Source: Halioglobus sp. (lineage in GTDB: Bacteria; Pseudomonadota; Gammaproteobacteria; Pseudomonadales; Halieaceae). Taken from it: DNA of 64,000 nucleotides. Location: NCBI GenBank assembly GCA_029287595.1, contig JARFQU010000224.1, positions 1 through 64,000 on the forward strand, read 5' to 3'. Each line of letters starts with the position of its first letter. The first letter of the stretch is position 1. The notes beneath the pieces are model-generated. The model saw only the letters and a program-made list of their open reading frames with translations. It was not told where the DNA came from and searched no databases. Made by a program: the position numbers and the translations under genes. This document shows positions 1 to 46,676 of this stretch, in pieces.

Positions 1-2050
1 TACCGCGCACTGCTGCATCACCGGGATTGAGGCGCGCGCGCTCCCTCCCCCGAATCTTGCGCTCACGGCTGGTGCGGGCGTGATCATATTGACTGTGCAG
101 TTGCGTGCGCGGCTGATTGGAAATCATATGCAGTGGATACTGCTGCGCGCGCTTGCCTCCCAGCCACTCGGTATGCTCATACCAGCATGGATGACCGCGA
201 CAATCGTCGTAACCAAAGCTGTCAATATCCTCAGAGAATATCTCGATTTTTCCCGAGGGTGTGCGCAATGGATACCGTGCAGGATCGCGCCGAAACAGCT
301 CCAGAGTGTATTCTGCTTCCGGCAGCTGCTGCGCAACGTCTATCTGCTCGCCCTGCCAGAAGGTCTCGAAATCGGGTAGCTCCACCCCCTTCCCCGCCGC
401 GTTGTCGCGGGTGACAGTGTAAATATGTTGCACCCACTGCATTTCATTTAGGCCTTCCGTGAAGGCTTCTTCGATACCCAGCCTGGAAGCCAGCCCGGCA
501 AACACTTCAAAGTCGCTGCGGGATTCACCAAAGCCGGGGACTATCTGGCGCATCGGCGAAATATACGCATCATAACTACTACCGCCAATATCGTTGCGTT
601 CCAGCGTCGTCTTGCAGGGAAAAACGATATCCGCATGCCGTGCCGATGCGGTCCAGAACGCCTCATTCACGATAATGGTTTCGGGTTTTTCCCAGGCGCG
701 ACGCAGCTCGTTGAGGTCCTGGTGATGGTGGAAGGGATTCCCGCCGGCCCAGTAGATCAGCTTGATCTCCGGATAGGTGAGGTCCTGCCCGTTATACGGG
801 AAGCTGGCACCCGGGTTGTTAAGCATATCCGCGTGGCGCGCCACCGGAATGAACGCATTGGCCGGGGCAGCGCGCTCACCAATCTCCAGACCCAGTGCCC
901 CCATCTTATAGTTTGGCAGGCGGCGGCCGCCGAAGCCGAAATTGTGGATACAGCCATAACCATAGCCAATGCCCGCGCCAGGCACACCAATATGCCCCAG
1001 CATTGCCGCCAGGGTAGTGATCATCCAGTAAGGTTGTTCACCAAACTCTTGACGCTGCAGCGACCAGCTAATCCCCAGCACACTGCGCTCCCTTCCCAGG
1101 CGCAGAGCCAGATCCCGAATATCTTCTGCGGCTATTTCACTAATGGACGACGCCCAGGCGGCATCTTTTGGCTGACCATCCTCCGCTCCCATTAAATACG
1201 GCAGAAACTTGTCAAAACCTACCGTGTATTTATCCAGGAAGTCCTGATCGTGCAGACCTTCGCTCATCAGGGTGTGGGCCAGGCCCAGCATAATCGCGAC
1301 ATCAGATCCCGGTCGACATGGCCACCACTGGGCGTCCAGGTCTTCCAGCACATCGTCTCGCACCGGGCTGACATTAGTGATCCGAACGCCGGCATCCCGG
1401 AGCAGCCGTAATTGCTCCCTGGCAGAGTGACTACCGATACCCCCGGCGTTAACCTGGGTATTCTTGATCGCAGCACCACCAAACAACACCATGGTTTTGG
1501 AATGCGCTGCCACCTCAGCCGGTGTCGGTGCCTCGCGTACTAACTTGAGAAAGGGGATGCCGGTGACCCGCCCCATGATGACTTCGGCAGCTGCGCTGGA
1601 ATAGGTATTGACCGAATCCACATACCCGCCGGCAAGTTTTAGAAAGCGATGCACCTGGCTCTGGGCGTGATGAAAGCGGCCGGCACTGGACCAGCCGTAG
1701 GAGCTACCGTACACGGCATCAGGGCCGTAATTTTCGTGCGTATGTTTGAGGGCATCCGCTGCCAGGCCCAGGGCGACATCCCAGGACACGGGTACAAAGG
1801 CTTCACGCCCGCGACCTGCCCCATCGCTGCTTCTGCCCTTTTCCAGATATCCGGCACGCACCATCGGCTGTGGAATGCGGGCACCCTCATCCAGGGCGTC
1901 AAGCAGTGACTGCCCGATGGGCGTGGGCTCCTTGTCGACCGCGTAGTTCTGCACAGACAACAATTTCTCGCCGTCGGTCTCTACAAGATAATTACCCCAG
2001 TGGGTGCAAGTTGGGACGAGGTACGACCCCCGATTGTTACTGTCTTTCAT
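1..2050 (-). CDS. Molybdopterin-dependent oxidoreductase, DMSO reductase family (partial)
   Basis: About 683 residues are visible; the C-terminus runs off the left edge. The protein reads through as a bis-MGD enzyme of the BisC/TorA/DMSO reductase branch. An N-terminal THWGNY segment (residues 16-21) replaces the cysteine motif that would bind a 4Fe-4S cluster, and NTYSSAAAE near residue 151 puts a serine where DMSO reductase has its Mo ligand. Later segments (GGNPFHHHQDLN, TPSGKIEIFS) are typical. It begins MKDSNNRGSY without a Tat twin-arginine signal, so I infer a cytoplasmic enzyme reducing S- or N-oxides or a related substrate. It follows the MFS gene on the same strand after 164 bp, so the transporter may supply the substrate. 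The exact substrate cannot be read from the sequence. Confidence 0.88.
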   Translation of the reverse strand, partial: MKDSNNRGSYLVPTCTHWGNYLVETDGEKLLSVQNYAVDKEPTPIGQSLLDALDEGARIPQPMVRAGYLEKGRSSDGAGRGREAFVPVSWDVALGLAADALKHTHENYGPDAVYGSSYGWSSAGRFHHAQSQVHRFLKLAGGYVDSVNTYSSAAAEVIMGRVTGIPFLKLVREAPTPAEVAAHSKTMVLFGGAAIKNTQVNAGGIGSHSAREQLRLLRDAGVRITNVSPVRDDVLEDLDAQWWPCRPGSDVAIMLGLAHTLMSEGLHDQDFLDKYTVGFDKFLPYLMGAEDGQPKDAAWASSISEIAAEDIRDLALRLGRERSVLGISWSLQRQEFGEQPYWMITTLAAMLGHIGVPGAGIGYGYGCIHNFGFGGRRLPNYKMGALGLEIGERAAPANAFIPVARHADMLNNPGASFPYNGQDLTYPEIKLIYWAGGNPFHHHQDLNELRRAWEKPETIIVNEAFWTASARHADIVFPCKTTLERNDIGGSSYDAYISPMRQIVPGFGESRSDFEVFAGLASRLGIEEAFTEGLNEMQWVQHIYTVTRDNAAGKGVELPDFETFWQGEQIDVAQQLPEAEYTLELFRRDPARYPLRTPSGKIEIFSEDIDSFGYDDCRGHPCWYEHTEWLGGKRAQQYPLHMISNQPRTQLHSQYDHARTSRERKIRGRERARLNPGDAAVRG

Positions 2051-9232: not shown

Positions 9233-9343
9233 GTCCTATCACTCAGGCAAAAGGCAATTGAACAACCTTGTATGATTAATGGCGGGACGAAGTTTCAGTA
9301 AAAACTGCAGCAAGACGTTTATCACATGTCCAGAGGCTGGCCT
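9233..9343. repeat. 111-bp direct repeat, copy 2 (intact vapC tail)
   Basis: Partner of 4380-4490, with one mismatch. This copy overlaps the 3' end of the intact vapC gene and 43 bp beyond its stop codon. The two copies bracket 4742 bp of unique sequence. Confidence 0.95.
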
Positions 9344-9635
9344 GACCATGCAATTGTACTGAGGCGAGCAAATGCATATCCAGGTAACCGATGCCGCGGG
9401 CCATCAGATCGCGTTGCGCAATAAAGTGCAGCACCTCGGAATCAGTGGCGATCGGGACCTCGGGTAATTCATGCAGCAGCGCTAGAATCTCGTCCCGATT
9501 ACGAAGATGACCACAGGCCAACTCGCCAACAATAAAGGGGTGCATTAGCACCAGGTTGTTCTCAAGTAGACCCGCGAGCTTATTGCCTCCCTGTCGAAAG
9601 TGGTCAATCCACACTGAGGTATCAACCAGGACCAT
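9276..9635 (-). CDS. vapC: VapC-type PIN-domain ribonuclease toxin
   Basis: 119 residues, normal for VapC. The PIN acidic residues are in place: D5 in MVLVDTSVW, E38 in VGELACG, D86 in GIGYLDMHLL and D105 in LWTCDKRL. VapC toxins are Mg-dependent RNases that cut tRNA or rRNA and stop translation when freed from VapB. In most relatives the last motif reads T-R-D; here it is T-C-D (C104), while the downstream remnant at 4423-4490 keeps arginine. The start is five bases after the vapB stop, so the two are co-translated, and autoregulation through the operator upstream of vapB is likely. Confidence 0.88.
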   Translation of the reverse strand: MVLVDTSVWIDHFRQGGNKLAGLLENNLVLMHPFIVGELACGHLRNRDEILALLHELPEVPIATDSEVLHFIAQRDLMARGIGYLDMHLLASVQLHGQASLWTCDKRLAAVFTETSSRH

Positions 9636-11983: not shown

Positions 11984-12604
11984 TTAAGATTTACGCAGCC
12001 CCCCGGCTATCAATGCCTTGGCGCTCTGTACCAGGCGATTGCCGTCCAGACGCCGGCTGCGGCGTATCCACTCCAGCAGCATGCCGTCAGTGAAGGCCAC
12101 TAACACCGCCGCCTCTTCTCGGGCGGCGAGGGACGCATCGAACTCCCCATTCTGCTGACCCAGGCGGACCACGCGTTCCATTTCGTCGTGGTAATGGTCG
12201 AAAAAGCTGTTTATCACAGGCTCCACCGCCGGGTCCTTGTCCTGAAATTCCAGGGACATAAGAATGGGCAACAAGAGCAGCTCATTATTTTTCACCCCGA
12301 CGCGCGCCGCCCACTCCACGAACATCTCCAGTTGCTCCCCCGCGGGAGATGCGGATTCGCGCATACGGGAGAAAATAGCCTCGTAAAGCGCACGGGACTG
12401 GGCAAGTAGTTCGAGCAACAGGGCCGACTTTCCCTTGAAATAAAAGTAAACAGCACCCTTGGTAAGACCTGCATCGCGGGCGATATCATCGATACTGGTG
12501 GCACCGTAGCCACGAGTCACGAATTGCTTGAGAGCCGAAGCAAGGACCTGTTCAGTACTCTGCTCGCGGCGCTCCTGGTTACTTCGCCTGTGCGGTCTGG
12601 GCAT
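11984..12604 (-). CDS. TetR/AcrR-family transcriptional regulator
   Basis: 206 residues. A standard TetR DNA-binding N-terminus (VTRGYGATSIDDIARDAG, then LTKGAVYFYFKGKSAL) at about residues 29-66 is followed by an all-helical ligand domain resembling the AcrR/BetI C-terminal type. It lies five bases downstream of the AraC regulator on the same strand, so the two are probably co-transcribed. TetR repressors in acyl-CoA catabolic clusters often respond to CoA thioesters. The inverted repeat before the oxygenase operon at 19111-19132 is a possible target. Confidence 0.88.
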   Translation of the reverse strand: MPRPHRRSNQERREQSTEQVLASALKQFVTRGYGATSIDDIARDAGLTKGAVYFYFKGKSALLLELLAQSRALYEAIFSRMRESASPAGEQLEMFVEWAARVGVKNNELLLLPILMSLEFQDKDPAVEPVINSFFDHYHDEMERVVRLGQQNGEFDASLAAREEAAVLVAFTDGMLLEWIRRSRRLDGNRLVQSAKALIAGGLRKS

Positions 12605-12609
12605 AGAGA

Positions 12610-13650
12610 CTATTTGACCTTGCGCAGGTCTTCACGAAAATCGCTGGGAGATTTTCCTGTCCAGCGACGGAAACTGCGGGCGAAATTACTGCAGTCGGAA
12701 AAACCGAGCATATAGGCGATTTCATTCACCGATAGATCCGCACGCAAAATATACTCTTCCGCCAGTTCGCGACGAGTGTCGCCCAACAGCTGCTGGTAGC
12801 TGGTTCCACTGGCCTTCAATTGGTTTCCAAGATCCTCCGCCGACAGTTCCAGCGAGTGTGCGAGCGTATCCAGTGCGAAGTCACCCCGGGGCAGCAACTC
12901 AAACAGGGACATCCGCGCTGCATTGGTTAACTCCACCTCGACGAAGGTTTTCACATAGTTGAAAACCAGCTGCTCGCTGTGGCGCGCCAGTTCCGCATTC
13001 CCACCAGGGAGCACATCGTCCAGATCCTCCTCGGGAAAATACAGGATTGTGGCGTCCGCCTCGTACTCAATGTGGCAGCGGAAATATTTATCGAACTTCT
13101 CGGTGAAACCTGTGGGAGGCACACACGCCAGGGCCAGGCGCTGAGGCGCGAACTCCGGACTGGACACCATGCGAACCATCTTCAGCATCGTGGCCGCCCA
13201 GGCAGACTCCTGCAGCAGTATCTCGAAGGACTCACCCATAAACTCAGCAGGTACCGCCTGCCGATAGCGCAGTTCGCCGGCCCCGTCGAACTCGATCCTG
13301 TCCCCCGTGTTGATGAAGGCGGAATAACGCTGCAGCCGCTGGCAAAATGCGCGCAGGGTCGTGGATGATGTCAGCATGACACCAAAGGCGTGGTAGTTGA
13401 TCGGGTTGATAAATTTTGCGAAGCGCAGGCCAAACTCGGCGTCGATATCGCCAGGCAGGTGGCGCAGGAGCGCCTCATGCATCAGGTCTCCCGGCACCCG
13501 GGCATCGAAATGGGGCGCGGAGTTTACATCCACCCCCACCTCGGACAGCGTCGCGGCACCGTCAAGTCCATAGGTGTCCAGAGTCTTGGCAATGCCCAGG
13601 GCACTGCCGATGTAACTGGTCACCGCCGGCGTTTCTGCCGTCTCATTCAT
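12610..13650 (-). CDS. AraC-family regulator (arabinose-binding-like N-terminal domain)
   Basis: 346 residues. The N-terminal two thirds match the Arabinose_bd-type domain of the OruR/ArgR-like AraC regulators (HYHAFGVMLTSSTTLRAF-like segment near residue 90). The last hundred residues hold the double helix-turn-helix, ending in LSVNEIAYMLGFSDCSNFAR, then the FRRWTGKSPSDFR signature. It likely activates the surrounding acyl-CoA genes. The start has GAGGGAGC immediately upstream. A second AraC gene of the same architecture is at 20872-21927, so the cluster carries two paralogous regulators. Confidence 0.9.
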   Translation of the reverse strand: MNETAETPAVTSYIGSALGIAKTLDTYGLDGAATLSEVGVDVNSAPHFDARVPGDLMHEALLRHLPGDIDAEFGLRFAKFINPINYHAFGVMLTSSTTLRAFCQRLQRYSAFINTGDRIEFDGAGELRYRQAVPAEFMGESFEILLQESAWAATMLKMVRMVSSPEFAPQRLALACVPPTGFTEKFDKYFRCHIEYEADATILYFPEEDLDDVLPGGNAELARHSEQLVFNYVKTFVEVELTNAARMSLFELLPRGDFALDTLAHSLELSAEDLGNQLKASGTSYQQLLGDTRRELAEEYILRADLSVNEIAYMLGFSDCSNFARSFRRWTGKSPSDFREDLRKVK

Positions 13651-13740: not shown

Positions 13741-14148
13741 TTAACCCTTCACCTCCAGAACAGCCTTCGCGGTCACGGTCTTGCCCCGCTGGCTTTCCAC
13801 CCACATATCCAGGGTGACAGTTCCAGTCGTCTCATCCACGGATTCCACCACGCCCTTGAAGTGCACGGTATCGCCCACGGCATTGAATATCATCATGCGC
13901 AGTGGCCCGATTTTGCGAATCCGCGCCTTGGGGCCCGCCCAATCGCGCATCAGCCGCTCAAACATACCCATCAGGAAGAAGGTGTTGGCGAAGGCGTCCG
14001 GGGCGCCGGTGGCCTGAGCCACCTTGGTATCATGGTGCATCAGCGACAGGTCACGGTTAGCGCCGGCTTCCATTACCAGACGCTGCAGGGTGATGGGGAT
14101 GGAGATTGGCGGCAGTTCAGCGCCGGCGACGATGTCGGACAAGTGCAT
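13741..14148 (-). CDS. MaoC-like hot-dog dehydratase, small subunit
   Basis: 135 residues of single hot-dog fold: SIPITLQRLVMEAGANRDLSLMHHD near the start has the Asp-x4-His arrangement used by R-specific hydratases, followed by FANTFFLMGMFERLMRDW. Its ATG overlaps the stop of the next gene upstream as TGATG, with GGAGGT six bases before it, so the two are translationally coupled and probably form a heterodimeric enoyl-CoA hydratase, as ChsH1/ChsH2-type MaoC proteins do in steroid catabolism. It is the last enzyme gene of the oxygenase operon before the AraC gene. Confidence 0.78.
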   Translation of the reverse strand: MHLSDIVAGAELPPISIPITLQRLVMEAGANRDLSLMHHDTKVAQATGAPDAFANTFFLMGMFERLMRDWAGPKARIRKIGPLRMMIFNAVGDTVHFKGVVESVDETTGTVTLDMWVESQRGKTVTAKAVLEVKG

Positions 14149-14705
14149 CACGATACCTCCTTTTGCACCGCGACAAAGCGAAAGATATCCAGATAGGCGA
14201 TCGCAACCAGTTCCCCGGTCTGCTTGGTATAGGTATCCTCCTGCCGCAGAAAAGCACCCTTCCCGACCTTGAGTTCCTTGTGCCTGATATCCACCAGCTT
14301 GCTGGTACAGGTCACCTCATCGCCGGGGTACAGGGGTTCGAAGAATTCCACTTCGACACTGGTGGCGAAGCTCTTGTCACAGGGCGCAGGCACATCGAAG
14401 ATCACCGGTATCTGAATCTGGGTGGGCTCGTCATCGATTTGTGCGGAGTTGTCACCCGGTTGCCAGTAGGGGGCAATGCCATAGGTGAATACCATGGAAG
14501 CCGGCGCCACCAGGTCGTCGTAGCCGGCGGCCTTGGCTGCTGCTGCATCTGTGTGGATGTCGCAAGCGAATTCCTTGGGTTCCAGCCAGCGGCGGATAGA
14601 GCCTTGTTCCACCGGATCCGGGCCGACGGACTGTCCCACGATTTTGCCCAGGTGTTGCTCGGTTTCTTCCCAGGTGCCCCAGAGGCCCCAGCTTGGTTCG
14701 GACAT
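14148..14705 (-). CDS. MaoC-like N-terminal hydratase (FAS1-like hot-dog)
   Basis: 185 residues. Hot-dog fold of the MaoC_dehydrat_N type: VGPDPVEQGSIRRWLE near residue 27, then AAKAAGYDDLVAPASMVFTY and FFEPLYPGDEVTCTSKLVDI. The ATG at 14705 has GGAGG five bases upstream; a longer open frame to 14786 lacks that support. It lies between the DUF35 protein and the small hot-dog gene and probably pairs with the latter to hydrate an enoyl-CoA intermediate produced by the pathway. Confidence 0.8.
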   Translation of the reverse strand: MSEPSWGLWGTWEETEQHLGKIVGQSVGPDPVEQGSIRRWLEPKEFACDIHTDAAAAKAAGYDDLVAPASMVFTYGIAPYWQPGDNSAQIDDEPTQIQIPVIFDVPAPCDKSFATSVEVEFFEPLYPGDEVTCTSKLVDIRHKELKVGKGAFLRQEDTYTKQTGELVAIAYLDIFRFVAVQKEVS

Positions 14706-14807
14706 GTTGCCTCCGTTGTTGGGATCAGGTTCGTGGCGTGCGGTGCGCGCCCTACGGATTAACGCGATCCAACCTAAGGTGCACAACGCGCACCATCGTT
14801 ATTCGTT

Positions 14808-15221
14808 TTACGCCTTTACCGGGCGAAAATACGGCAAGGTGATCTCGTCGGTAACGTCCCTGAAAACCACTTCCACTTCCATGCCGATGTGCACGTCCTC
14901 GGGCTCGCACTCCACCAGGTTGGTATGCATGCGGATGCCCTCGGGCAGGTCGATCCAGGCGAGGATGATGGGCAGGTCTTCGACAAACTTCTGTTCCACT
15001 CCCTCCAGGGTTACCGAGTATGTGTATACCTGGGCTTTGCCGGAGGCCTCTATCCAGCCCATGTCCTGGCTCCAGCACTTGGGGCAGTCCCTTCTGGGAT
15101 AAAAAATATTGCTGTCACAGCTATTGCAATGCTGGATCAGTAATTTGTGTTGTTTAGTGCCGTCCCAGAAAGCCTGGCTGTAGGGCTGGATTTCAGGCAG
15201 GGGTTTCTTGTAATCGCTCAT
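14808..15221 (-). CDS. Zinc-ribbon/OB-fold (DUF35) partner of the thiolase-like enzyme
   Basis: 137 residues. An N-terminal helix (YSQAFWDGTKQHKLLIQ) leads to a zinc ribbon with C32, C35, C46 and C49, and then an OB fold (VYTYSVTLEGVEQKF to EVVFRDVTDEITLPYF). DUF35 proteins bind acyl-CoA and dock to SCP-x/Ltp2-type thiolases; ChsH2 in steroid side-chain cleavage and IpfE in ibuprofen catabolism are characterised examples. The ATG overlaps the TGA of the thiolase gene, which supports a complex. Confidence 0.88.
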   Translation of the reverse strand: MSDYKKPLPEIQPYSQAFWDGTKQHKLLIQHCNSCDSNIFYPRRDCPKCWSQDMGWIEASGKAQVYTYSVTLEGVEQKFVEDLPIILAWIDLPEGIRMHTNLVECEPEDVHIGMEVEVVFRDVTDEITLPYFRPVKA

Positions 15222-16399
15222 TTAATGGCCCTCCCGAATACAGTCGTACAGGTATTCATCACCGAACCGCCCGAGGTCGTCAGGATGGCATGTTCGCAGT
15301 TTTGCACCTGGCGCTCACCCGCCTGCCCGCGCAACTGGCGAACCGTATCGAGGTAGAAAGCCATGCTCACACCGGAACCGGTGTGGCCGCGGCCGGTGGC
15401 GTCACCCATCGTGGTGCACGGTATATCCCCGCCGGGACCGCAGCGGCCCTCCGCCCACAATTTGGCACCCTGCCCCTCCTCGCAGACGCCGTAGCCCTCC
15501 AGGGCGCTGCACTGGGTGTAAGGGTAAGCGCCGTAGATCTGACGCAGGTCCATGTCGTGTATGGACAGCCCCGCCTGGGACAGCGCATCCTGGCTGGATT
15601 CCCGGTAGGACTGCCTATGAAATACATCCTCACGCAGCATCGGCGTCGCGCTCATGAAGCGTGTACCGTGTCCCAGCTTATAGACCGCCTTGTCGCCCAT
15701 TTCTTTCGCGATATCCCGGGAGGTCACCACCATGGCACCACCGCCATCCGCCAGCAGATTGCACTCCTTGGCTTTCAGTGGCGTGCTTATCATGCGGGAG
15801 TTCATTACGTCGTCGAGGGTAATGGGCTTGCCATAAAATATCGACAGGGGATCAAGCGCACCCCAGGCCCGCAGTGCCACGGTAACGGCCGCCAGTTCTT
15901 CCTCGGTAGCGCCGGTCTCATACATGTAACGCTGGGTAATCAGGCCCATTGACCCGTTGAAGGTCACGCCATAGGGGTACTCGAACTGCTTGTCCAGTGG
16001 CGCTGTGGCGAAGAAGTTAATCAGGTCCTGGGGCGGAATATCTGACTGCACTGTGGTGTGGGGAATCAGTACGAAGTCCACCTGGCCACTGTCGATATGC
16101 TGTTCCGCCAGGCGCAGGCAGTTGGTGGTGGACGCACCGCCGGCATTGCAGATGGCGATATCTCGGCAACCCTCAAGCCCCATCACTTCGGGGATCTTGC
16201 CCAGGGACATGTCGTTTTGCATACCGGGCTGGGCCATGGGGTTATTGGATATCACTGCACCGATACGGTTCTTGTCGATACCGGCGTCGCGCACCGCTTC
16301 CATGCAGACATCCAGCAGAATATCCCAGCGGGTGCGTTCCGGGTTGCGCAGTGTTGGCACCTCGCCGATGCCAACAATGGCGAGTCCTCTTTTACTCAT
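15218..16399 (-). CDS. Thiolase-like lyase, SCP-x/Ltp2 type, lacking the catalytic cysteine
   Basis: 393 residues of thiolase fold (GIGEVPTLRNPERT at the N-terminus, LLADGGGAMVVTS in the middle, GGSVMNTCTTVF at the end). Where a true thiolase has NACASG it reads NAGGAST, so the nucleophilic cysteine is glycine. The NTHGG histidine motif is likewise absent, with CTTMGDATGRGHTG in its place. This is the pattern of Ltp2/IpfD-type enzymes, which use a partner DUF35 protein to cleave C-C bonds by retro-aldol or deacylation chemistry. It has an AGGA ribosome-binding site and is translationally coupled to the DUF35 gene. I predict a chain-shortening lyase on a CoA thioester. Confidence 0.85.
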   Translation of the reverse strand: MSKRGLAIVGIGEVPTLRNPERTRWDILLDVCMEAVRDAGIDKNRIGAVISNNPMAQPGMQNDMSLGKIPEVMGLEGCRDIAICNAGGASTTNCLRLAEQHIDSGQVDFVLIPHTTVQSDIPPQDLINFFATAPLDKQFEYPYGVTFNGSMGLITQRYMYETGATEEELAAVTVALRAWGALDPLSIFYGKPITLDDVMNSRMISTPLKAKECNLLADGGGAMVVTSRDIAKEMGDKAVYKLGHGTRFMSATPMLREDVFHRQSYRESSQDALSQAGLSIHDMDLRQIYGAYPYTQCSALEGYGVCEEGQGAKLWAEGRCGPGGDIPCTTMGDATGRGHTGSGVSMAFYLDTVRQLRGQAGERQVQNCEHAILTTSGGSVMNTCTTVFGRAIK

Positions 16400-16453
16400 G
16401 GTTATATTCCTGTGTTTGAGAGGCAGACCAGTGGGCTGCCGGGGCTATGTCAC

Positions 16454-17314
16454 TCAATCGTCTTCGGAGTATTCCGCCCGGTGGAACAGGTCAAGGTTGT
16501 CGTCGATGCTGACCGCCAGCGGCCGGCGCAGGGCGACCGTATCGGGGTCCGTGGGAATCATGAACTCCCACAGGGTTTCCGGGAGAGCACTGTCGCTGGG
16601 CCGGCGGCGGGCCCCATCCCAGCCCCCTTCCAGCCCCTGCTCCATGATGGCGGTCAGTTCCTCATCGCTTAGACCCAAGGCGGCGGTGAGCTTGCCCAGG
16701 GAATCCTCGATGAAGCCCAGGCGGGCATCCCATACCGAGCTGGAGCGCACGCCTTCCTGCAATAACACGTCGGTACCCGATCGATTCTTGCTATCAAACC
16801 AGGCCAGCACCTGTGGAGCGCGGCGCACTACGGCCTCACGCATATTGGCTCGATCTTCCTCGTCGGCCGACTTCAGCCAGCCCTCGATGCCGATGCGATG
16901 GAAATACAGTTCCTTGCCGAAGTGCCTGACCATGCCCTTGATATCATCGACGGTGCTGTCTTTGAACGTGTTCAACATGCGCCATACGGCAATCTCTGCC
17001 AGGAAGGTAGAAATCAGGAAATCGCCCCAACTTTCCGGCGGGGAAGAGAGCATCTGCATATCGTGCAGTTGCTCCCGCTCGCGAGCGAACTCCAACTGGT
17101 GCTCGGGCAGTTCCAGCTCCTCTTCCAGGTAGCGGAACATGGCGCGGGTATGGCCCAGGGTGTCCTGCGCCATACCGGCGAAGGCAGTGCAATCGGTCAG
17201 GCTGCGACCGTTGAGCATGACCTTGATGTACCAGTGGCCCAGTACCCAGTCGCTGTCGGCAATGCACAGCATCTCCGCGACAAATTCTCTCTTTGCGTGT
17301 TCACTAATTCTCAT
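16454..17314 (-). CDS. PaaC-like structural subunit of a multicomponent oxygenase
   Basis: 286 residues, ferritin-like helical bundle of the phenylacetic-acid-catabolism family: FVAEMLCIADSDWVLGHWY, AQDTLGHTRAMFRYLEEE and FLAEIAVWRMLNTFKDS. In the characterised epoxidase PaaC is the inactive partner that holds PaaA. This copy is about forty residues longer than Escherichia coli PaaC, with the extension at the C-terminus. It is the last oxygenase gene before the thiolase-like gene, 54 bp away, and 20 bp after the zinc-ribbon gene. Confidence 0.85.
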   Translation of the reverse strand: MRISEHAKREFVAEMLCIADSDWVLGHWYIKVMLNGRSLTDCTAFAGMAQDTLGHTRAMFRYLEEELELPEHQLEFAREREQLHDMQMLSSPPESWGDFLISTFLAEIAVWRMLNTFKDSTVDDIKGMVRHFGKELYFHRIGIEGWLKSADEEDRANMREAVVRRAPQVLAWFDSKNRSGTDVLLQEGVRSSSVWDARLGFIEDSLGKLTAALGLSDEELTAIMEQGLEGGWDGARRRPSDSALPETLWEFMIPTDPDTVALRRPLAVSIDDNLDLFHRAEYSEDD

Positions 17315-17334
17315 CGTATCAACCTCACTGTCTA

Positions 17335-17550
17335 TTATTCACCGGGGAGTTTGCCCTGCCACTTCATCCACCCGAAAGTGCTTTTGCAATCGTCGCACTT
17401 CATGGACATCTCCGAGACGGTACCGCCAAAGGGGCTCACCACCTGGGTATTGGTGGACTCACACCAGGGACAGGCAACCTGCTCGTCGTACAAATCACCG
17501 AACAGGTCCTGGGGACCCTGGCTCGGCTTTTTCGGCACGTCCCCATTCAT
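17335..17550 (-). CDS. Stand-alone PaaD C-terminal zinc-ribbon protein
   Basis: 71 residues. Two CxxC pairs (CPWCES and CDDCKS) frame the segment TNTQVVSPFGGTVSEM, matching the C-terminal zinc ribbon that normally ends PaaD (usual form C-P-x-C-G-S ... C-x2-C-x3-F). Here it is an independent gene separated from the PaaD N-terminal half by the paaB-like gene, and it has its own ATG. It probably binds Zn or assists Fe-centre maturation of the PaaA-like subunit. Three bases separate it from paaB. Confidence 0.75.
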   Translation of the reverse strand: MNGDVPKKPSQGPQDLFGDLYDEQVACPWCESTNTQVVSPFGGTVSEMSMKCDDCKSTFGWMKWQGKLPGE

Positions 17551-17553
17551 GGC

Positions 17554-17799
17554 TCAGGCGGCCCCGAGTATCTTGTTAGGCGAGATGATGGGGATCACAT
17601 CATCACGACGCACCATGCACATCTCCACCCAGATCTTTTCCGAGTACATCAGCCTGGCCTGGGCCAGTGCCGTTTCCGGATTGGCGGCACTCAGGCAGCC
17701 TATATGCGCCAGCGGCCCGTCCATTTCCTCCCGTGCGAAGACCTCGTAATAGTCATAATCGCTGACCGGGAGGGGTATTTTGTCTTTCACTGTGCCCAT
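17554..17799 (-). CDS. PaaB-like small subunit
   Basis: 81 residues. The PaaB fold is recognisable from YYEVFAREEMDGPLAHIG, SAANPETALAQARLMYSEK and WVEMCMVRRDDVI. In the phenylacetyl-CoA epoxidase PaaB bridges PaaAC heterodimers. It lies between the two halves of PaaD in an unusual gene order A-D(N)-B-D(C)-C. Confidence 0.85.
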   Translation of the reverse strand: MGTVKDKIPLPVSDYDYYEVFAREEMDGPLAHIGCLSAANPETALAQARLMYSEKIWVEMCMVRRDDVIPIISPNKILGAA

Positions 17800-17811
17800 A
17801 GCGGGTAACTC

Positions 17812-18126
17812 CTAAATGCAGTATCCGTGTTCTCTGGCGATGATCCGTGCATCGGGTGCAATGTCATTGCGGTTCCACTCGTGCTTCCACTCAATCTTAA
17901 CCTTGACCCGACTCACTCCTTCGACCGCCCCAACGGTTTGTTTCAGTTCCGCCTGGATCAGGTCCCAGGCGGGGCAGCCCACACAGGGAAACACCAGGCC
18001 AACATCCACCACGCCAGCGGTATCGATATCCACACGGCGCACCATGCCCATATCCGGGAGGCTCACGTTCATGTGGGGGTCCATCACCTGCTCCAGGGCG
18101 GCACGCACCGCGGTTTCGCTTACCAC
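17812..18126 (-). CDS. PaaD N-terminal (MIP18/DUF59) domain protein
   Basis: 104 residues: VRAALEQVMDPHMNVSLPDMGMVRRVDI, then LVFPCVGCPAWDLIQAELKQ with the conserved cysteine-bearing loop. The protein corresponds to the DUF59 half of PaaD, a likely Fe-S or di-iron maturation factor, and stops before the zinc ribbon. GTG 18126 overlaps the PaaA-like stop by seven bases, so the two are coupled. The missing ribbon is encoded 262 bp further on (17335-17550). Confidence 0.85.
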   Translation of the reverse strand: MVSETAVRAALEQVMDPHMNVSLPDMGMVRRVDIDTAGVVDVGLVFPCVGCPAWDLIQAELKQTVGAVEGVSRVKVKIEWKHEWNRNDIAPDARIIAREHGYCI

Positions 18127-19079
18127 AACTTGCTACCCCACTCTTCCCGCTGCAGCCGTTCATAGCAGGCGGGACGCATGGGCCCGCCCTTCTTGAAATT
18201 ATCAATGGCACGGTCCCAGGTGGTTTGTTCCCATTCCCAGTCCATCTTGTCTGAATCGAAAGTCATGGGATAAGGCATGCCGTCGATCACATACTCCTGT
18301 TTTTCTGCATCGAATTTCGCGGGCACATCCAGCCCGGTGCGCTCGGCAAAGTCGGTGGCAGACTTAAGCCACTTGGCGCGCATGGTGTCGTTGGTCCACT
18401 CCCGGACTTTGTAGGTTAACTGGTCGGGGTGCCCCTTGAGGTGGTCGGGCCGGCCGTACCAGTGATAGCCCCAGGGGAAAATCCAGTTCACCGCATCCTG
18501 CACCAGTTTCTTGGTCTCATCGTTCTGCTCGAAGTAATACTTGGTCCACAGGGCTCCGTGGCGGAAGTGGAAGGCCTCCTCGAAATTCACTTTTTTCAGG
18601 GTGCGGCGGTAGGGTGCAAAGCTACAGTGCAGCTCCAGGTCCCAGGTGGTAAAACGACCGGCGCGGTCCAGGAAGGCCTGGGACACTACGAACTCCGCAT
18701 AGTTGCGAACCGGGAACTCCATGATGGGCAGGGACCAGTAGGTGTTGGGGTCGGCCTCGAATGCAAGTTTTTGCATATTGACGCCAAAGCGCTCATAGAG
18801 CATGCCCTGCTGGTGCGCATGGCCTACCTCGTCCTGGATCGTCCCGCAGATAGCCACTTTGGCACCGATATCCGGGGCGACGTCAAAAGCCGTGTACGCC
18901 CAGGTCAATACGGTCACCTCGCTCTGGGCGGCGATTTCAAGCGTTCGCTCCAGGATCGCCTTGTAACGCGGGGTCAACTCATCCATATCCTCGATCAGTT
19001 CACCCGCCTGTATTCGGGCCAGAAGGGCCTCTTCTGCGGCCTGCTCCGGGCTGGTTTGTACTGCTTCCATTGTGCTCAT
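18120..19079 (-). CDS. PaaA-like catalytic di-iron subunit
   Basis: 319 residues. The di-iron helices are intact: AAQSEVTVLTWAYTAFD, IQDEVGHAHQQGMLYE (ExxH) and VNFEEAFHFRHGALW (E...HxxH), as in PaaA. The enzyme should activate O2 and epoxidise or hydroxylate a CoA-bound substrate. It is diverged from true PaaA and accompanied by neither PaaE (the reductase) nor PaaG/PaaZ, so phenylacetyl-CoA is not the obvious substrate. ATG 19079 is used, with AAGG eight bases upstream. It is the first gene of the operon; an inverted repeat 32 bp upstream overlaps a TATAGT box. Confidence 0.87.
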   Translation of the reverse strand: MSTMEAVQTSPEQAAEEALLARIQAGELIEDMDELTPRYKAILERTLEIAAQSEVTVLTWAYTAFDVAPDIGAKVAICGTIQDEVGHAHQQGMLYERFGVNMQKLAFEADPNTYWSLPIMEFPVRNYAEFVVSQAFLDRAGRFTTWDLELHCSFAPYRRTLKKVNFEEAFHFRHGALWTKYYFEQNDETKKLVQDAVNWIFPWGYHWYGRPDHLKGHPDQLTYKVREWTNDTMRAKWLKSATDFAERTGLDVPAKFDAEKQEYVIDGMPYPMTFDSDKMDWEWEQTTWDRAIDNFKKGGPMRPACYERLQREEWGSKLW

Positions 19080-19110
19080 AGTAAGTACCTTTTGGTGTAA
19101 TGCCGTTAAC

Positions 19111-19132
19111 ACATACCTACTATACAGTATGT
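19111..19132. promoter_or_regulatory. Putative operator/promoter of the oxygenase operon
   Basis: Inverted repeat ACATAC (19111-19116) and GTATGT (19127-19132) with a ten-base spacer. On the minus strand the spacer contains TATAGT, a plausible -10 element for the PaaA-like gene. A TetR-type dimer bound here would block the promoter. Confidence 0.45.
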
Positions 19133-19196
19133 TTTTTCATGGAACCAAGCGTTTGCTGTTGTGAAAACCGGTCATTTACTGGTCATCAGGCGATGC

Positions 19197-20765
19197 CTAA
19201 TTGACCATTCTGTCACTGCCGTCCCAGTACCGGGCGCGCAACGCTTTCTTGTCTATCTTGCCCAGGGACGTTTGCGGCAGTGCCTGCACGAAGTCAATCT
19301 GCTTGGGGGCCTGGATCGCGCCCCTCCTGTCTTTCACCAGGGCGATCAGCGCTTCTGCGTCCGCGCCCCCTTCGGTTTTGGGTACCACCACGGCAACAAC
19401 TTTCTCGCCCCACTTTTCGTCCGGCACGCCAATCACGGCTGCCAGGGCGACCCCCGGGTGGGCGGTAAGTACATCTTCCACCTCTCTCGGGTACACATTG
19501 AAACCACCACTGATGATCATATCCTTGGCCCGGTCCACCAGGTAGTAGAACCCCTCTTCGTCCTGGTAACCCAGATCACCGGTGTGCAACCAGCCTCCGG
19601 CCAGCGTTTCCGCGGTCTGCTGCGGGCGTTTCCAGTAGCCGCGCATGACCGCCTCGCTGCGAATACAGACCTCGCCGATTTCTCCCGGTGACACCTGGAC
19701 GCCCTCCTCGTCCAACAGCGCCATGCGCACCCCAGCCGGGGGCTTACCACAGGAGGCCAGCCGCGCAGGCTTGTCCAGGCGGTGCTCTTCCTTGCGCATC
19801 ATGGTCAGGTGGATACATTCAGTCTGCCCGTAGCATTGCAACATAACTGGCCCGAACAGCTCCAGGGCCTCTTTAAGGCGTGTCGGCGACATTGGGGCAG
19901 ATGCGTAGATAATGGATTCGATACTGGATAAATCCGCCTTTCGCGTGCGCGGGTGGTCCATCAGCACATAGATCATGGTAGGCACGAGAAACAGAGTGTT
20001 GACCCGCTCCCGCTCCACCAGGTCCAGGATCTGGTCGGGATCGAAGCCGGCAGTCAGGTAGACCTTGCCGCCGTTGAGGAAGGTCGGGATCAGCAGAAAA
20101 CCCGCGGCGTGGCTGATGGGCGATGAGGCCAGGTAACGTATTTCCTGTGGCCATTGCCACTCGGCCATAGAGATCAGGCTCTTGGCCGCCATACTGCCCT
20201 GGGTCATGATCACCCCCTTGGGTCTGCCGGTGGTACCGCCGGTGTAGCTCACCCAGGCGATGTCCTCATAATTCGGCAGATCATCCAGGACCTCGGGCTG
20301 CGCCTGTTCCGCCAGCACCGGCAGGTCCATGCCGAATTCGGAGGGACCCAGGGAATAGATTTTCAAATCGTTCGCAGCGCCCGCCTTGAGTTCCTCACCA
20401 CGTGCGGCAAAATAAGGCACATCGACTACCATGGCGCTGATTTCAGCGTCCTGGAGAATAAACAACTGGTCTTCCAATGATCCCATGGGATGCAAGGGGG
20501 TGTAGCGCATGCCATTGGCAAGCACCGCCGCCATGGTGGCAAAAGTATCCACCCGGTTGGCGGCCAGTTGGGCAACGCCGTCCCCGCGCTTGAGTCCAGC
20601 GTCGCGCAGTACCCGGGCTATCTGCCAGATACGGCGCTCGAGCTGGGCATAAGACAGTCCCAGGCCGGTGGCGTCGACAATGGCCTCGCGTTCCGGCCAG
20701 CGGCGTAAGCCCTGCAGAATCAGGTCAAAATAAGTGCTGCCCTGGTACAAACGGTGGTCTGCCAT
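19197..20765 (-). CDS. AMP-dependent acyl-CoA synthetase
   Basis: 522 residues with a SYTGGTTGRPKG phosphate loop near residue 172, the core YGQTE motif, GWLHTGDLGYQDEEGF, KDMIISGGFNVYPREVED and the terminal TSLGKIDKKALR with the catalytic lysine. It is a medium/long-chain or aryl acyl-CoA ligase, paralogous to the gene at 10197. It lies upstream of the oxygenase operon on the same strand (118 bp before paaA) and probably makes the CoA thioester the oxygenase works on. A short dyad, GCACT-tt-AGTGC (20796-20807), sits just before it. Confidence 0.87.
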   Translation of the reverse strand: MADHRLYQGSTYFDLILQGLRRWPEREAIVDATGLGLSYAQLERRIWQIARVLRDAGLKRGDGVAQLAANRVDTFATMAAVLANGMRYTPLHPMGSLEDQLFILQDAEISAMVVDVPYFAARGEELKAGAANDLKIYSLGPSEFGMDLPVLAEQAQPEVLDDLPNYEDIAWVSYTGGTTGRPKGVIMTQGSMAAKSLISMAEWQWPQEIRYLASSPISHAAGFLLIPTFLNGGKVYLTAGFDPDQILDLVERERVNTLFLVPTMIYVLMDHPRTRKADLSSIESIIYASAPMSPTRLKEALELFGPVMLQCYGQTECIHLTMMRKEEHRLDKPARLASCGKPPAGVRMALLDEEGVQVSPGEIGEVCIRSEAVMRGYWKRPQQTAETLAGGWLHTGDLGYQDEEGFYYLVDRAKDMIISGGFNVYPREVEDVLTAHPGVALAAVIGVPDEKWGEKVVAVVVPKTEGGADAEALIALVKDRRGAIQAPKQIDFVQALPQTSLGKIDKKALRARYWDGSDRMVN

Positions 20766-20871: not shown

Positions 20872-21927
20872 TTAACCGGATCCCAGAGACTCCCGGAACT
20901 CCATGGGCGACTTCCCGGTCCACTTCTTGAAGGCGCGGGAGAAGTTGGCGGTGTCTGAAAAACCGATCAGGTAGGCGATTTCATAGATGGGAAGATCCTG
21001 GCGAATGTAGTCCTCGGCCAAGGTGCGGCGGGTGTCGTCGAGCACTTCGCGGTAGGTGGTACCCGCACCTTCGAGCTTGTTGTACAAGGTGCGGGTACTC
21101 ATATTCAACGCCTGGGCCACCTGTTCCTTACCAGACACCCCGGTGGGGAGCAGCTTGATCAGTTCCCTGTGCACCCGGCCGGGGAAATCCGCCCGATCGA
21201 TTTTCTCCAGGTGGTCGATGGTGAGCTTCTCATACAAACGAACCATTTCCGGATTGGCACTGGGCAGTTTCTCCGCCAGCTCCGCTTCGTTAAAGGCAAT
21301 GGTAGTTACCGCTGCGTCAAATTCGACGGGGCAGCCAAAAAATGACTCATAGGCGCTCTCCAGGCCCTCGGGGCGCGGCCTGGCCAGGGCCACCGAGTGC
21401 GGATGAAATTCCTTTTGCATTGCCACTCTCGCAGTTCTCACGGTTAGCGCGGCGAAACCGTCCACCCGAATCGGTATCATGCGCATCTCGGGTTGCGGGG
21501 TAGCCCTGATCGTGTACAGCCCGTCCTCCAGGCTGGCGCTGAGGAAGTCGTTGGTAGTAATCAGGCGATAGTATTTAACAAAGCAATCCAGGTAGTCGCC
21601 CAGGGTCTCACTGGAATACATGGCAATGCCCAGCGAATAAAACGTGGAAGGATGCACATACCCCACCAAGTGCAAACCAAACATCGGGTCATTACAGCGC
21701 TCCTGGGCCAGCAGGAGTAGCTCCTGTAACTGGGCGGAGGGTATGCGTACGTTGGGATCGCGCAGGGAATCGAGATCCAGGCCGACCTCGGCGAACATCG
21801 CCGCAGGGTCCTGCCCGGCTCCCGCTATAGTCTGGGCTATCACAGTCCCCATTGGACCAATAGTGGAGTGTTCAACCGCTGGCATCGTTATCTTTCTTGT
21901 GGCAGGCGAGGTCGAAGATTTGAACAT
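20872..21927 (-). CDS. AraC-family regulator (arabinose-binding-like N-terminal domain)
   Basis: 351 residues from ATG 21927; ATG 21885 is a possible shorter start. The sensor half has HLVGYVHPSTFYSLGIAMYSS. The C-terminus carries the AraC helix-turn-helix pair (DLPIYEIAYLIGFSDTANF, then SRAFKKWTGKSPMEFRE). It resembles the regulator at 12610, and together they flank the oxygenase and ligase genes. It is expected to activate the cluster in response to a substrate or an acyl-CoA. Confidence 0.9.
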   Translation of the reverse strand: MFKSSTSPATRKITMPAVEHSTIGPMGTVIAQTIAGAGQDPAAMFAEVGLDLDSLRDPNVRIPSAQLQELLLLAQERCNDPMFGLHLVGYVHPSTFYSLGIAMYSSETLGDYLDCFVKYYRLITTNDFLSASLEDGLYTIRATPQPEMRMIPIRVDGFAALTVRTARVAMQKEFHPHSVALARPRPEGLESAYESFFGCPVEFDAAVTTIAFNEAELAEKLPSANPEMVRLYEKLTIDHLEKIDRADFPGRVHRELIKLLPTGVSGKEQVAQALNMSTRTLYNKLEGAGTTYREVLDDTRRTLAEDYIRQDLPIYEIAYLIGFSDTANFSRAFKKWTGKSPMEFRESLGSG

Positions 21928-24443: not shown

Positions 24444-24935
24444 ATGAGCACCGATTCCGTCGTTGAGAAACTCGAGAGCCTGGGCATGTCATTACCGGCG
24501 CCACTGCAGCTGCCACCACATATCGTCCCCAAGTTTCCCTTCGTGCGCGTTATCGGCAATCGCGCCCTGGTCTCTGGTCACGGCCCAATCCACGCCGATG
24601 GCAGCCTCGCTAGCGAGCTGTTCGGCAAGGTAGGCCAGGATCTTGACCTGGAACAGGCCACTGAGGCCGCCAGGCTTACCGGGCTGGCGATACTCAGTAG
24701 CCTGAAAGATGAACTGGGCTCGCTAGCACGGGTCACCGCCTGGGGTCGGATCATGGGTATGGTCAACTGCACCCCGGATTTTGTCCAACAAACACCGGTC
24801 ATTGACGCCTTCTCCGAGCTTATCAATCAGGTCTTCCCCCCTGAAGTGGCAGCCCATTCTCGAGCGGCAGTGGGCATGGTTTCGCTGCCAATGGGCATGT
24901 CGGTGGAAATCGAGGCCGAGGTATACTTCGAGTAA
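24444..24935 (+). CDS. RidA (YjgF/YER057c/UK114)-family protein
   Basis: 163 residues of the RidA fold: FVRVIGNRALVSGHGPIHADG, LGSLARVTAWGRIMGMVN, PEVAAHSRAAVGMVSLPMG. The usual arginine of RidA (as in the S-R-x-x-V/A-x-V segment) is present as SRAAVG, so it may deaminate enamines or bind related intermediates. It lies 12 bp after the FMN oxidase and overlaps the next start by one base, indicating one operon. Confidence 0.85.
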   Translation: MSTDSVVEKLESLGMSLPAPLQLPPHIVPKFPFVRVIGNRALVSGHGPIHADGSLASELFGKVGQDLDLEQATEAARLTGLAILSSLKDELGSLARVTAWGRIMGMVNCTPDFVQQTPVIDAFSELINQVFPPEVAAHSRAAVGMVSLPMGMSVEIEAEVYFE

Positions 24936-25399
24936 TGGCCGATAAACTTGTAATCAGCAGCCTGCAGGACTTCCAGGCAAGGGAGGGGCAACTGCTGTTC
25001 GCCTCCCCGCCCCTGACAGCGTCGAAGGAAATGATCCAGCAGTTCTGCCGCTCGGTAAACCAGCTGGACTGGTTTCACTTCGACGAGGAGCGTTGCGCGG
25101 CCTCACCTTTCGGTGCGATCGTGGCACCGGGCATGTTCACCCTTTCGTTGATCCATTCGGTGTATTTCGACAACGTGGAGTTGCAGGGCTTGCGTGCACT
25201 GTTCCTGGGCTCGGATCGCTTTAGAATTCTGCGACCGGTAAAAGCAGGGGACGAGTTAAGCCTCAGGTTCACGGTGGCACGGGTAGAGGTTCGCGAGGAA
25301 GGCTTCGCGGTGCATTACGATTTTACCTGGCATGTAAATAACGAGGAGCAAGCCGTTACTCTTGGCAACTTCATAGTACGCTACTGGCCCGAGCAGTGA
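24935..25399 (+). CDS. MaoC-like hot-dog protein
   Basis: 154 residues of the R-hydratase type: ASKEMIQQFCRSVNQLDWFHFDEERC (Asp-x-x-His context), then GAIVAPGMFTLSLIHSVYFD, the conserved proline-glycine turn and helix, and FRILRPVKAGDELSL. Probably an (R)-enoyl-CoA hydratase or dehydratase. Its ATG overlaps the RidA stop by one base. It is not in the larger catabolic cluster but may share its substrates. Confidence 0.8.
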   Translation: MADKLVISSLQDFQAREGQLLFASPPLTASKEMIQQFCRSVNQLDWFHFDEERCAASPFGAIVAPGMFTLSLIHSVYFDNVELQGLRALFLGSDRFRILRPVKAGDELSLRFTVARVEVREEGFAVHYDFTWHVNNEEQAVTLGNFIVRYWPEQ

Positions 25400-37715: not shown

Positions 37716-38579
37716 ATGATTCCATCGGAATTTGAATACCACAAAGCCACCAGTATTCAGGACGCCATAGCCCAGCTAGGCGCACATGAAGACTCCAAGC
37801 TACTGGCAGGCGGGCACAGCCTCCTGCCAATGATGAAATTACGTTTCGCCGAGCCGCCTCACTTGATTGATATCAATGGCATTGAGGAACTCCGGGGCAT
37901 CCGGCTGGAGGGCGACACGATCTGTATCGGCGCCATGACCACCGAAAACGAGCTGATCGAATCCGAGATTCTGCAGCAGCACTGCCCGCTTCTGGTGGAA
38001 GCGGCCCGATTAGTGGCCGATCCACAGGTAAGAAACCGCGGCACCATTGGTGGCGATGTGGCACACGGCGACCCGGGCAACGATCACCCTGCCGTGATGC
38101 TGGCCCTGGATGCCACTTTGGTTCTGCATGGCCCTGACGGTGAGCGTCAGCAATCAGCCAATGGTTTCTTCCTGGGAACCTACTGGAACGACCTGCAGGA
38201 GCAGGAAATCCTGGTTGAGTTGCGTGTCCCCGTGATCAAAAAGGGCGTGGGCCACGGCTACAGCAAATTGAAACGCAAAACAGGCGATTATGCCGTCGCT
38301 GGCTCGCCGGTGGTTATTGAACTGGACGGGGACGTCTGTCGCGATATCAGAATCGCCCTAACCAACGTGGCGCCCATGGCGATTAGAGCGGAAGCAGCGG
38401 AAAATATACTGCGCGGTAAGGTCATCGACGACGCACTGATCGAACAGGCCGCCGCGGAAGTCCTCGCGGTCTGTGACCCCGCAGAAGACTTGCGGGGAGA
38501 CGTTCTCTACAAATCCCATATGGGGGCCGAGATGGCCCGCCGCTCCATTCGCGCTGCACTGCAACAGGCAAGAGGATAA
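37716..38579 (+). CDS. coxM: CO dehydrogenase medium (FAD) subunit CoxM
   Basis: 287 residues: the FAD-binding domain of the xanthine dehydrogenase/CO dehydrogenase family with [15 protein letters not shown] (residues 28-42), the flavin-contact motif [19 protein letters not shown] near residue 106, and the C-terminal CO_deh_flav_C region ([16 protein letters not shown]). It accepts electrons from CoxS clusters and passes them to the respiratory chain. It starts the operon; four bases separate it from coxS. The order M-S-L is that of form I clusters. Confidence 0.93.
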
Positions 38580-38583
38580 CACC

Positions 38584-39060
38584 ATGGCAAAGCAACATGT
38601 TTCATTCAACCTCAACGGTAAGCAAGTTGACGCTTTGGTGGAACCAAGAGAGTTATTGGTGCACACCATCCGGGAGACACTCAGCCTGACCGGCACCCAC
38701 ATAGGCTGTGAAAGTTCGCACTGTGGTGCCTGCACAGTCGATCTGGACGGCAAATCGGTTAAATCCTGTACCGTACTTTCGATGCAGGCAGACGGCTCTG
38801 AGCTGAAAACCGTTGAAGGCCTGGCGGATGCCGAGGGCCTGCATGCTGTACAGCAGGCTTTCATTCAGGAACATGGTTTGCAGTGCGGCTTTTGCACACC
38901 GGGAATGTTGATCAGGGCCTACCGCTTCTTACAGGAGAATCCGAACCCCACCGAAGAGGAAATCCGCTGGGGGATGTCTGGCAACCTGTGCCGCTGTACC
39001 GGCTACCAGAATATCGTCAAGGCGGTGCAGACAGCCGCACAAACGCTACAACAAGCCTGA
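38584..39060 (+). CDS. coxS: CO dehydrogenase small (2x[2Fe-2S]) subunit CoxS
   Basis: 158 residues, ATG 38584. The plant-type ferredoxin cluster is ligated by C42, C47, C50 and C62 ([16 protein letters not shown]), the second cluster by C101, C104, C136 and C138 (CGFCTPGM, then CRCTGYQNI). All eight ligands are present. It shuttles electrons from the Mo-Cu centre to the FAD of CoxM. Eleven bases separate it from coxL. Confidence 0.95.
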
Positions 39061-39070
39061 GGTGACCGGA

Positions 39071-41476: not shown

Positions 41477-41478
41477 AA

Positions 41479-41497
41479 CGCCGCCCGCGGTGCGGCG
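41479..41497. other. GC stem in the coxL-coxG gap
   Basis: CGCCGC (41479-41484) and GCGGCG (41492-41497) form a six-base stem with a seven-base loop, just after the coxL stop. There is no T run after it, so it looks like an mRNA stability or attenuation element rather than a full terminator. Confidence 0.35.
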
Positions 41498-41542
41498 GTT
41501 GGTAGCTTTGGACGCGACCCTTTTCTCGTTGGAGAGATATAG

Positions 41543-42124: not shown

Positions 42125-42166
42125 GCCTGATTCTGGCCGGGCATTCAGTTGATGGGCTCTTAAGTA

Positions 42167-44247: not shown

Positions 44248-44266
44248 TGTATTGAGGTTACTGACC

Positions 44267-45834: not shown

Positions 45835-45842
45835 ATAAGCCC

Positions 45843-46673: not shown

Positions 46674-46676
46674 GCA

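Follow-up and report, generated by a model that had tools for sequence, protein, structure and literature searches.

Phenylacetyl-coenzyme A (CoA) epoxidase, PaaABCE, epoxidises the C1–C2 bond of phenylacetyl-CoA (PMC4498308), and it has been suggested that its subunits PaaA and PaaC can serve as robust markers, in genomes, for the breakdown of phenylacetate (PMC13186573). A second assembly, the hydratase–aldolase ChsH1–ChsH2–Ltp2 of M. tuberculosis and T. curvata, by which steroids lose their side chains, brings together an active MaoC-type hydratase subunit, an inert MaoC partner, a DUF35 domain and an aldolase with a base tyrosine, in which ChsH1 is the active subunit and ChsH2 is inert, on the side of the bulky substrate (PMC11321319). 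In the ibuprofen ipf cluster an oxygenase and a thiolase-like pair act on a CoA ester, and this pair, encoded by ipfDE, is assigned to the release of propionyl-CoA (PMC9195938). The subject here is an operon in a 64,000-nucleotide stretch of DNA from Halioglobus sp. (assembly GCA_029287595.1, contig JARFQU010000224.1, positions 1 to 64,000; hereafter the window), in which ten minus-strand genes combine a CoA ligase, a five-gene di-iron oxygenase and an unfused set resembling ChsH1, ChsH2 and Ltp2. Each module is of a known kind; what appears to be new is their combination, the loss of phenylacetate-specific residues from the oxygenase and a tyrosine/histidine layout in the putative aldolase. 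The pairing of the two modules probably marks an undescribed breakdown route for a bulky carboxylic acid. The genes of the operon, in order of transcription, are as follows.

19197..20765, minus strand: AMP-forming acyl-CoA ligase; nearest NCBIfam model FadD8, 511 bits, below the cut-off of 875
18120..19079, minus strand: PaaA-like catalytic subunit; Pfam 118 bits; TIGR02156 85 bits, cut-off 280
17812..18126, minus strand: MIP18/DUF59 protein, equal to the N-terminal half of PaaD; PF01883; paad_haloarch 62.6 bits
17554..17799, minus strand: PaaB-like bridging subunit; PF06243 30.5 bits, above cut-off
17335..17550, minus strand: PaaD-type zinc ribbon, a separate protein equal to the C-terminal half of PaaD; PF23451 54.7 bits
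16454..17314, minus strand: PaaC-like structural subunit; PF05138 62.8 bits
15218..16399, minus strand: Ltp2/Sal-like putative retro-aldolase with a thiolase fold; YGAY motif, Tyr289 and His339 invariant
14808..15221, minus strand: DUF35 scaffold, like the C-terminal part of ChsH2; zinc site C-x2-C-x10-C-x2-C, a C4 finger
about 14148..14705, minus strand: HotA, a MaoC partner like the N-terminal part of ChsH2; catalytic Asp lost, His kept
13741..14151, minus strand: HotB, ChsH1-like hydratase subunit; Asp34/His39 dyad

These genes lie in a minus-strand series that runs from 21927 to 11984, in which the operon is bracketed by an AraC-type regulator upstream and by AraC- and TetR-type regulators downstream. 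From the PaaA-like gene to that of HotB, adjacent genes either overlap by a few bases or are separated by gaps of no more than about 100 bases, and it is this close spacing that makes a single operon likely. The PaaB-like and zinc-ribbon genes are below the 90-amino-acid limit of the list of open reading frames and were detected as Pfam matches above cut-off. The PaaA-like gene likely starts at the ATG at 19079, its open reading frame extending to 19112 (330 amino acids, the numbering used below for this protein). For the ligase, the PaaK model is not among the 25 best matches listed. The source is a Halieaceae metagenome-assembled genome (MAG) of 3.69 Mb in 228 contigs, 94.7% complete, whose named close relatives are also Halieaceae. 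A sequence-only reading of the window had described this cluster, and open reading frames, Pfam and NCBIfam show its parts to be real and correctly placed. The PaaA, PaaB, PaaC and PaaD homologues which it listed are all present, with the amendment that PaaD is two separate genes; likewise, its two hot-dog hydratases are indeed two genes, but PDB matches and motifs divide them into one ChsH1-like catalytic subunit and one ChsH2-like degraded partner.

The di-iron oxygenase and its possible electron supply

The structures closest to an AlphaFold model of the PaaA-like protein (mean predicted local distance difference test score, pLDDT, 87) are those of PaaA, with E. coli PaaA nearest, at template-modelling (TM) scores of about 0.74–0.79 over the query and about 21% identity. 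All six di-iron ligands are present, as E65, E95, H98, D149, E179 and H182; in E. coli PaaA the ligands are Glu42, Glu72, His75, Asp126, Glu155 and His158 (PMC4498308). In the same E. coli enzyme Phe108 orients the phenyl group, and roles are also described for Lys68 and Glu49, which form the lysine bridge (PMC4498308); in the window these three positions are occupied by Met131, Thr91 and Ala72, respectively.

The substitutions extend across a clade. In a tree of 98 PaaA proteins, 13 form the canonical group (which includes E. coli and the canonical Halieaceae copies), 50 come from haloarchaea, Thermus, Chloroflexi and Rubrobacter, 13 from Bradyrhizobium and Agrobacterium, and 22 make up the clade of the window, which is a separate branch with support of 100/99; the 50-row set is weakly supported as a single group, and long branches are flagged. 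Phe108 is kept in all 13 canonical proteins and in all 50 of the haloarchaea/Thermus type, but in none of the 22, where its position holds Met (19), Leu (2) or Glu (1). Lys68 and Glu49 are each present in 13 of 13 canonical proteins and each absent from the 22, although the loss of this bridge is the weaker marker, since it is also missing from the 50-row set. Phe108 is never present in the Bradyrhizobium/Agrobacterium set either. As an observation in its own right, this other PaaA-like clade without Phe108, seen in Bradyrhizobium, Agrobacterium and Pseudomonas (L052-L058, L062), may have a non-phenylacetate substrate of its own.

As with the PaaA-like protein, the PaaC-like protein scores below the cut-off of its equivalog model (37.7 against 133 bits). 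It has QDTLGH where PaaA has QDEVGH, such that a threonine replaces the glutamate of the ExxH motif, which fits the role of a structural subunit. Canonical PaaD carries the DUF59 part and the zinc ribbon in a single protein (TIGR02159), whereas here two genes, MIP18/DUF59 at 17812-18126 and the zinc ribbon at 17335-17550, flank that of PaaB, an order (A, MIP18, B, zinc ribbon, C) which is common to near relatives. Separate MIP18 and zinc-ribbon genes are also found in haloarchaea, Thermus and others, the zinc ribbon sometimes after PaaC. These split-PaaD systems of haloarchaea and Thermus (NCBIfam paad_haloarch and paae_haloarch) similarly have their oxygenase genes in one run; they sit, however, on another branch and retain Phe108. 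A split PaaD is possibly a general marker of non-canonical PaaABC systems.

With regard to electron supply, neither PaaE (best match 43 bits, cut-off 421) nor PaaZ (122 bits, cut-off 563) was found in the genome of the window at its 94.7% completeness, such that their absence, noted in the sequence-only reading, holds genome-wide; PaaG was not searched for genome-wide. Nor does this genome hold any PaaA or PaaC protein beyond the operon's own two. In G002 and G014 (HTCC2080) a canonical paa set of PaaA, PaaE and PaaZ coexists separately with this oxygenase set, and other relatives too carry separate canonical paa sets. Since G002 and G014 hold both, the two oxygenases are not simple substitutes for each other. 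A stand-alone 2Fe-2S ferredoxin is encoded directly after PaaC in L044 (UBA7415), L046 and L047 (Hellea), those of L046 and L047 being 56% identical to that of L044, and this position suggests an electron route without PaaE, in which the stand-alone protein plausibly replaces the PaaE ferredoxin domain. The ferredoxins found in Halieaceae are all unlinked and more distant. The earlier reading had raised the case of a PaaA homologue acting on phenylacetyl-CoA as standard PaaA does; as judged from its sequence, without the residues specific to phenylacetyl-CoA and beside separate canonical paa sets in relatives, the oxygenase is probably not a phenylacetyl-CoA epoxidase.

The putative hydratase–aldolase module

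HotA, HotB, DUF35 and the Ltp2-like protein have the anatomy of the ChsH1–ChsH2–Ltp2 assembly; that is, they are a module of a known kind. In searches of the PDB, the sole matches of HotA are the ChsH1/ChsH2 entries 4w78_A and 4wnb_A, and the best matches of HotB are the other chain of the same entries (4wnb_B and 4w78_B); since the depositors' chain names disagree between 4w78 and 4wnb, the subunits were assigned by length and motif. HotB keeps the D34/H39 dyad, while HotA has Phe for the Asp and retains the His, which is the same pattern as the active ChsH1 and the inert ChsH2. The DUF35 protein matches 9myr_B and the DUF35 of TcChsH2, and the Ltp2-like protein matches 4u4e, 9myr, 7yvy and TcLtp2; from motifs matching those in PMC12329534, we infer that 9myr is CtSal/CtShy-DUF35. 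In comparison with ChsH1–ChsH2–Ltp2, ChsH2 is here split into HotA and DUF35 genes, and the whole is joined to a di-iron oxygenase. The bile-acid Shy–Sal system of Comamonas testosteroni also has an Ltp2-family aldolase borne by DUF35, but Shy, a homodimer, is a hydratase fused into a single protein, and its zinc site is of the Cys3His1 type (PMC12329534), whereas the proteins of the window are unfused and the zinc site is C4.

Within the Ltp2-like protein, Tyr289 aligns with the base tyrosine of both TcLtp2 (Tyr294) and CtSal (Tyr302) and is followed by Gly-Ala-Tyr, such that Ala291 stands in place of the His of YDHF, and His339 occupies the position of TcLtp2 Tyr344 and CtSal Gln352 (PMC12329534). 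Both Tyr289 and His339 are invariant among the aligned copies. In other words, where Ltp2 has YDHF and Tyr344 and Sal has YDCY with a catalytic Cys304, the window has YGAY and His339, and its protein is Ltp2-like at most, not Ltp2 proper. Most likely it is a retro-aldolase with a third layout of active-site residues, in which His339 would probably act as the acid. The sequence-only reading had called it a cysteine-less thiolase, which is literally incorrect, as Cys84 stands at the position of the thiolase nucleophile in the window and in the other aligned Halieaceae copies; this cysteine is not conserved, its position being held by Ala in L044 (81% identical) and by Leu in L047, which are the two most distant aligned copies. 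Compared with SCP2/BbsB-type thiolases, moreover, the His of HDxF is replaced by Tyr (Tyr289) and the Asp by Gly in all aligned copies, and the GH motif is kept. Homologues of Ltp2 on plasmids (37% and 33%) belong to clusters of Rhizobium and Rhodococcus that also contain P450, and are uninformative on the substrate.

Co-occurrence, proposed pathway and alternatives

Among 140 genomes of the family, 11 have the oxygenase and 9 the Ltp2 subfamily, and each of these nine is also one of the 11 (Fisher p = 1.3e-12, ignoring kinship); a tenth Halieaceae Ltp2, 78% identical, is truncated where a contig of G843 ends. Beyond Halieaceae, both modules are carried on one contig in UBA7415 (L044), in Hellea (L047), an alphaproteobacterial MAG, and in a Lysobacterales MAG (L042/L175). 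The subfamily is thus seen in 13 genomes (10 Halieaceae and 3 others), of which 13 have the oxygenase, and no genome was found with the subfamily and without the oxygenase; in a draw of 398 genomes from the phylum, the subfamily occurs only in the window's own genome. The modules are adjacent in Halieaceae and in Hellea; in UBA7415 they lie on opposite strands with about 5 kb between them, and in the Lysobacterales MAG this distance is about 11 kb. A ChsH1/ChsH2-type hydratase pair sits beside Ltp2 in every complete copy seen. The oxygenase is also present in distant Sulfobacillus, Mycobacterium and Burkholderiales (G882-G884), where Ltp2-family proteins are 27–36% identical or absent. Since they recur across lineages in several arrangements, the genes have not come together by chance, and the modules do indeed travel together in other genomes, as the sequence-only reading had proposed to check. 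Its claim that an oxygenase combined with Ltp2, DUF35 and hydratases differs from the gene sets for both ibuprofen and steroids also stands. No paper linking PaaA with Ltp2, DUF35 or ChsH2 was found in the part of the literature covered by the search, and a Halieaceae genomics paper gave no match to the paa, steroid or aromatic terms looked for in it.

By the reading favoured here, held at a little better than even confidence from sequence comparison, the operon specifies a single catabolic route, dependent on CoA, for the breakdown of a carboxylic acid that is bulky and probably carries a ring but is not phenylacetate. In such a pathway the ligase would form the CoA thioester of the acid, and the PaaA/B/C-like di-iron oxygenase, aided by the split PaaD, would add an oxygen atom to the acyl moiety, its electrons coming from a stand-alone 2Fe-2S ferredoxin and not from PaaE. 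The 2-enoyl-CoA would be made by an acyl-CoA dehydrogenase whose gene lies elsewhere, a proposed step for which acyl-CoA dehydrogenase genes sit in the cluster in several relatives. The HotA/HotB heterodimer would then hydrate the beta carbon, with HotB supplying the Asp/His dyad and HotA holding the bulky part of the substrate, whose bulk is itself suggested by the ChsH2-like partner. Lastly, the Ltp2-like protein, carried on DUF35, would perform a retro-aldol cleavage, in which Tyr289 would serve as the base and His339 probably as the acid, and the products would be a ketone or aldehyde together with acetyl-CoA or propionyl-CoA; the oxygenation could come before or after this cleavage. Quite tentatively, the oxygenase might oxidise the ring carbon beside the side chain of a marine compound so far unrecognised as a substrate, from which the Tyr/His aldolase would strip the side chain as acetyl- or propionyl-CoA, and such a scheme could, with the same reserve, repeat the logic of ibuprofen breakdown with a di-iron enzyme and with a third arrangement of the aldolase active site.

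Several observations weigh against a single pathway of this kind. At least five genomes (G820, G881, G874, G876 and G878) have the oxygenase but not this Ltp2 subfamily, so that the oxygenase can work without it, and at one locus (L031) the oxygenase lacks a neighbouring ligase gene. In a comparison of the window with Luminiphilus, conservation is about 90% for the Ltp2 module and about 55% for PaaB/PaaC, and this inequality may mean partly separate histories. Furthermore, the structure model of the Ltp2-like protein is too poor to use (mean pLDDT 42), and the role of His339 is taken from the alignment only. The oxygenase-only genomes and the differing conservation are what would be expected of two independent neighbouring modules, acting on different compounds within a shared catabolic island; this is nonetheless unlikely, given that no genome was found with the Ltp2 subfamily and without the oxygenase, and that the modules recur in several arrangements, of which the one in Halieaceae resembles an operon, its genes overlapping or standing a short distance apart. 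It is also doubtful that the operon follows ibuprofen breakdown more closely, by ipso attack on the ring carbon that bears the side chain and cleavage of the beta-hydroxy thioester by the Ltp2-like protein, leaving the hydratases a minor or different role. Such a route has precedent in that C1 of the bond epoxidised by PaaABCE is the beta carbon and that ipfDE are assigned to propionyl-CoA release, but it would not need the hydratase pair which accompanies Ltp2 in every complete copy, and the phenyl-orienting Phe108 is absent. IpfAB is, moreover, a Rieske ring-hydroxylating oxygenase, of a different type from the PaaA-type di-iron enzyme of the window, and to our knowledge the ipf cluster has no hydratase pair.

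A steroid or bile-acid side-chain pathway, with the oxygenase as an accessory hydroxylase, would account for an anatomy equal to that of ChsH1–ChsH2–Ltp2, and the KshA family (of steroid 9-alpha-hydroxylase type) has five matches of up to 189 bits in the genome of the window (G000; contigs C131, C197, C153 and C223, outside the window), with KshA-type Rieske oxygenases also present in HTCC2080. This reading is improbable: it is weakened by G804 (98% complete, with the complete operon except the ligase) and G877, which hold both modules and in which a KshA-family protein is absent, and the residues of the aldolase active site and of the DUF35 zinc site differ from those of Ltp2, Sal and Shy. 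An ordinary phenylacetyl-CoA epoxidase in an unusual neighbourhood is very improbable. PaaA/PaaC family membership and fold, the di-iron ligands, all six of which are kept, and the presence of PaaB and of the two PaaD halves are in keeping with it, but Phe108, Lys68 and Glu49 are lost and the scores lie far below the equivalog cut-offs; as the leading reading it is rejected on account of these residues, the tree, the absence of PaaE and PaaZ and the canonical paa sets that coexist in relatives. Scarcely credible is a true thiolase using Cys84, for which the position of this cysteine in the Halieaceae copies and the retained GH motif would speak; the replacements in HDxF count against it, and it is rejected for the lack of conservation of Cys84.

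Neighbouring genes and significance

Around the operon, whether it encodes the single pathway favoured above or not, lie the following further genes.

20872..21927, minus strand: AraC-type regulator (Arabinose_bd + HTH_18, Pfam), adjoining the cluster also in other Halieaceae; probably controls the operon
12610..13650, minus strand: second AraC-type regulator, its position conserved in relatives
11984..12604, minus strand: TetR-type regulator, its position conserved in relatives
24935..25399, plus strand: further MaoC-like protein, with a homologue near the oxygenase in 9 of 12 lineage groups
1..2050, minus strand: BisC-family molybdopterin S/N-oxide reductase, partial in the window; near the oxygenase in 6 of 12 lineage groups

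Across the same 12 lineage groups, acyl-CoA dehydrogenases (6), amidohydrolases (5), RidA (4) and a flavin mononucleotide (FMN) dehydrogenase (4) also recur near the oxygenase, and more rarely NMO-like proteins (at least 3), CoA transferase III (3) and DUF2817 (3). These neighbours fit a catabolic island without naming the substrate. An S58 peptidase, a D-aminoacylase-like amidohydrolase, a D-amino-acid dehydrogenase and DUF2817 are seen near the oxygenase in L042 (18673-19878), L041 (4000-6897) and L044 (3126-4304). Together with RidA, the other amidohydrolases and BisC, they hint at an amide-containing substrate, and the D-aminoacylase-like and D-amino-acid dehydrogenase neighbours might indicate one containing D-amino acids, but they are too variable between loci to name one. 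Elsewhere in the window, positions 37716-47942 appear by eye, from the starts of the open reading frames, to hold a cluster for a CO-dehydrogenase/xanthine-dehydrogenase-type molybdenum enzyme with maturation genes, and 9276-9635 a short protein of what appears by eye to be the PIN-domain (VapC-like) type.

In regard to PaaA and PaaC as markers of phenylacetate breakdown, the clade described here, which is found in coastal marine bacteria, HTCC2080 among them, most likely has another function, and Phe108 offers a simple residue by which to discriminate it. A version of the steroid-type hydratase–aldolase with what appear to be different catalytic residues helps in understanding how the thiolase fold changes into an aldolase. 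Finally, the operon points to a marine carbon substrate which is still without assignment.

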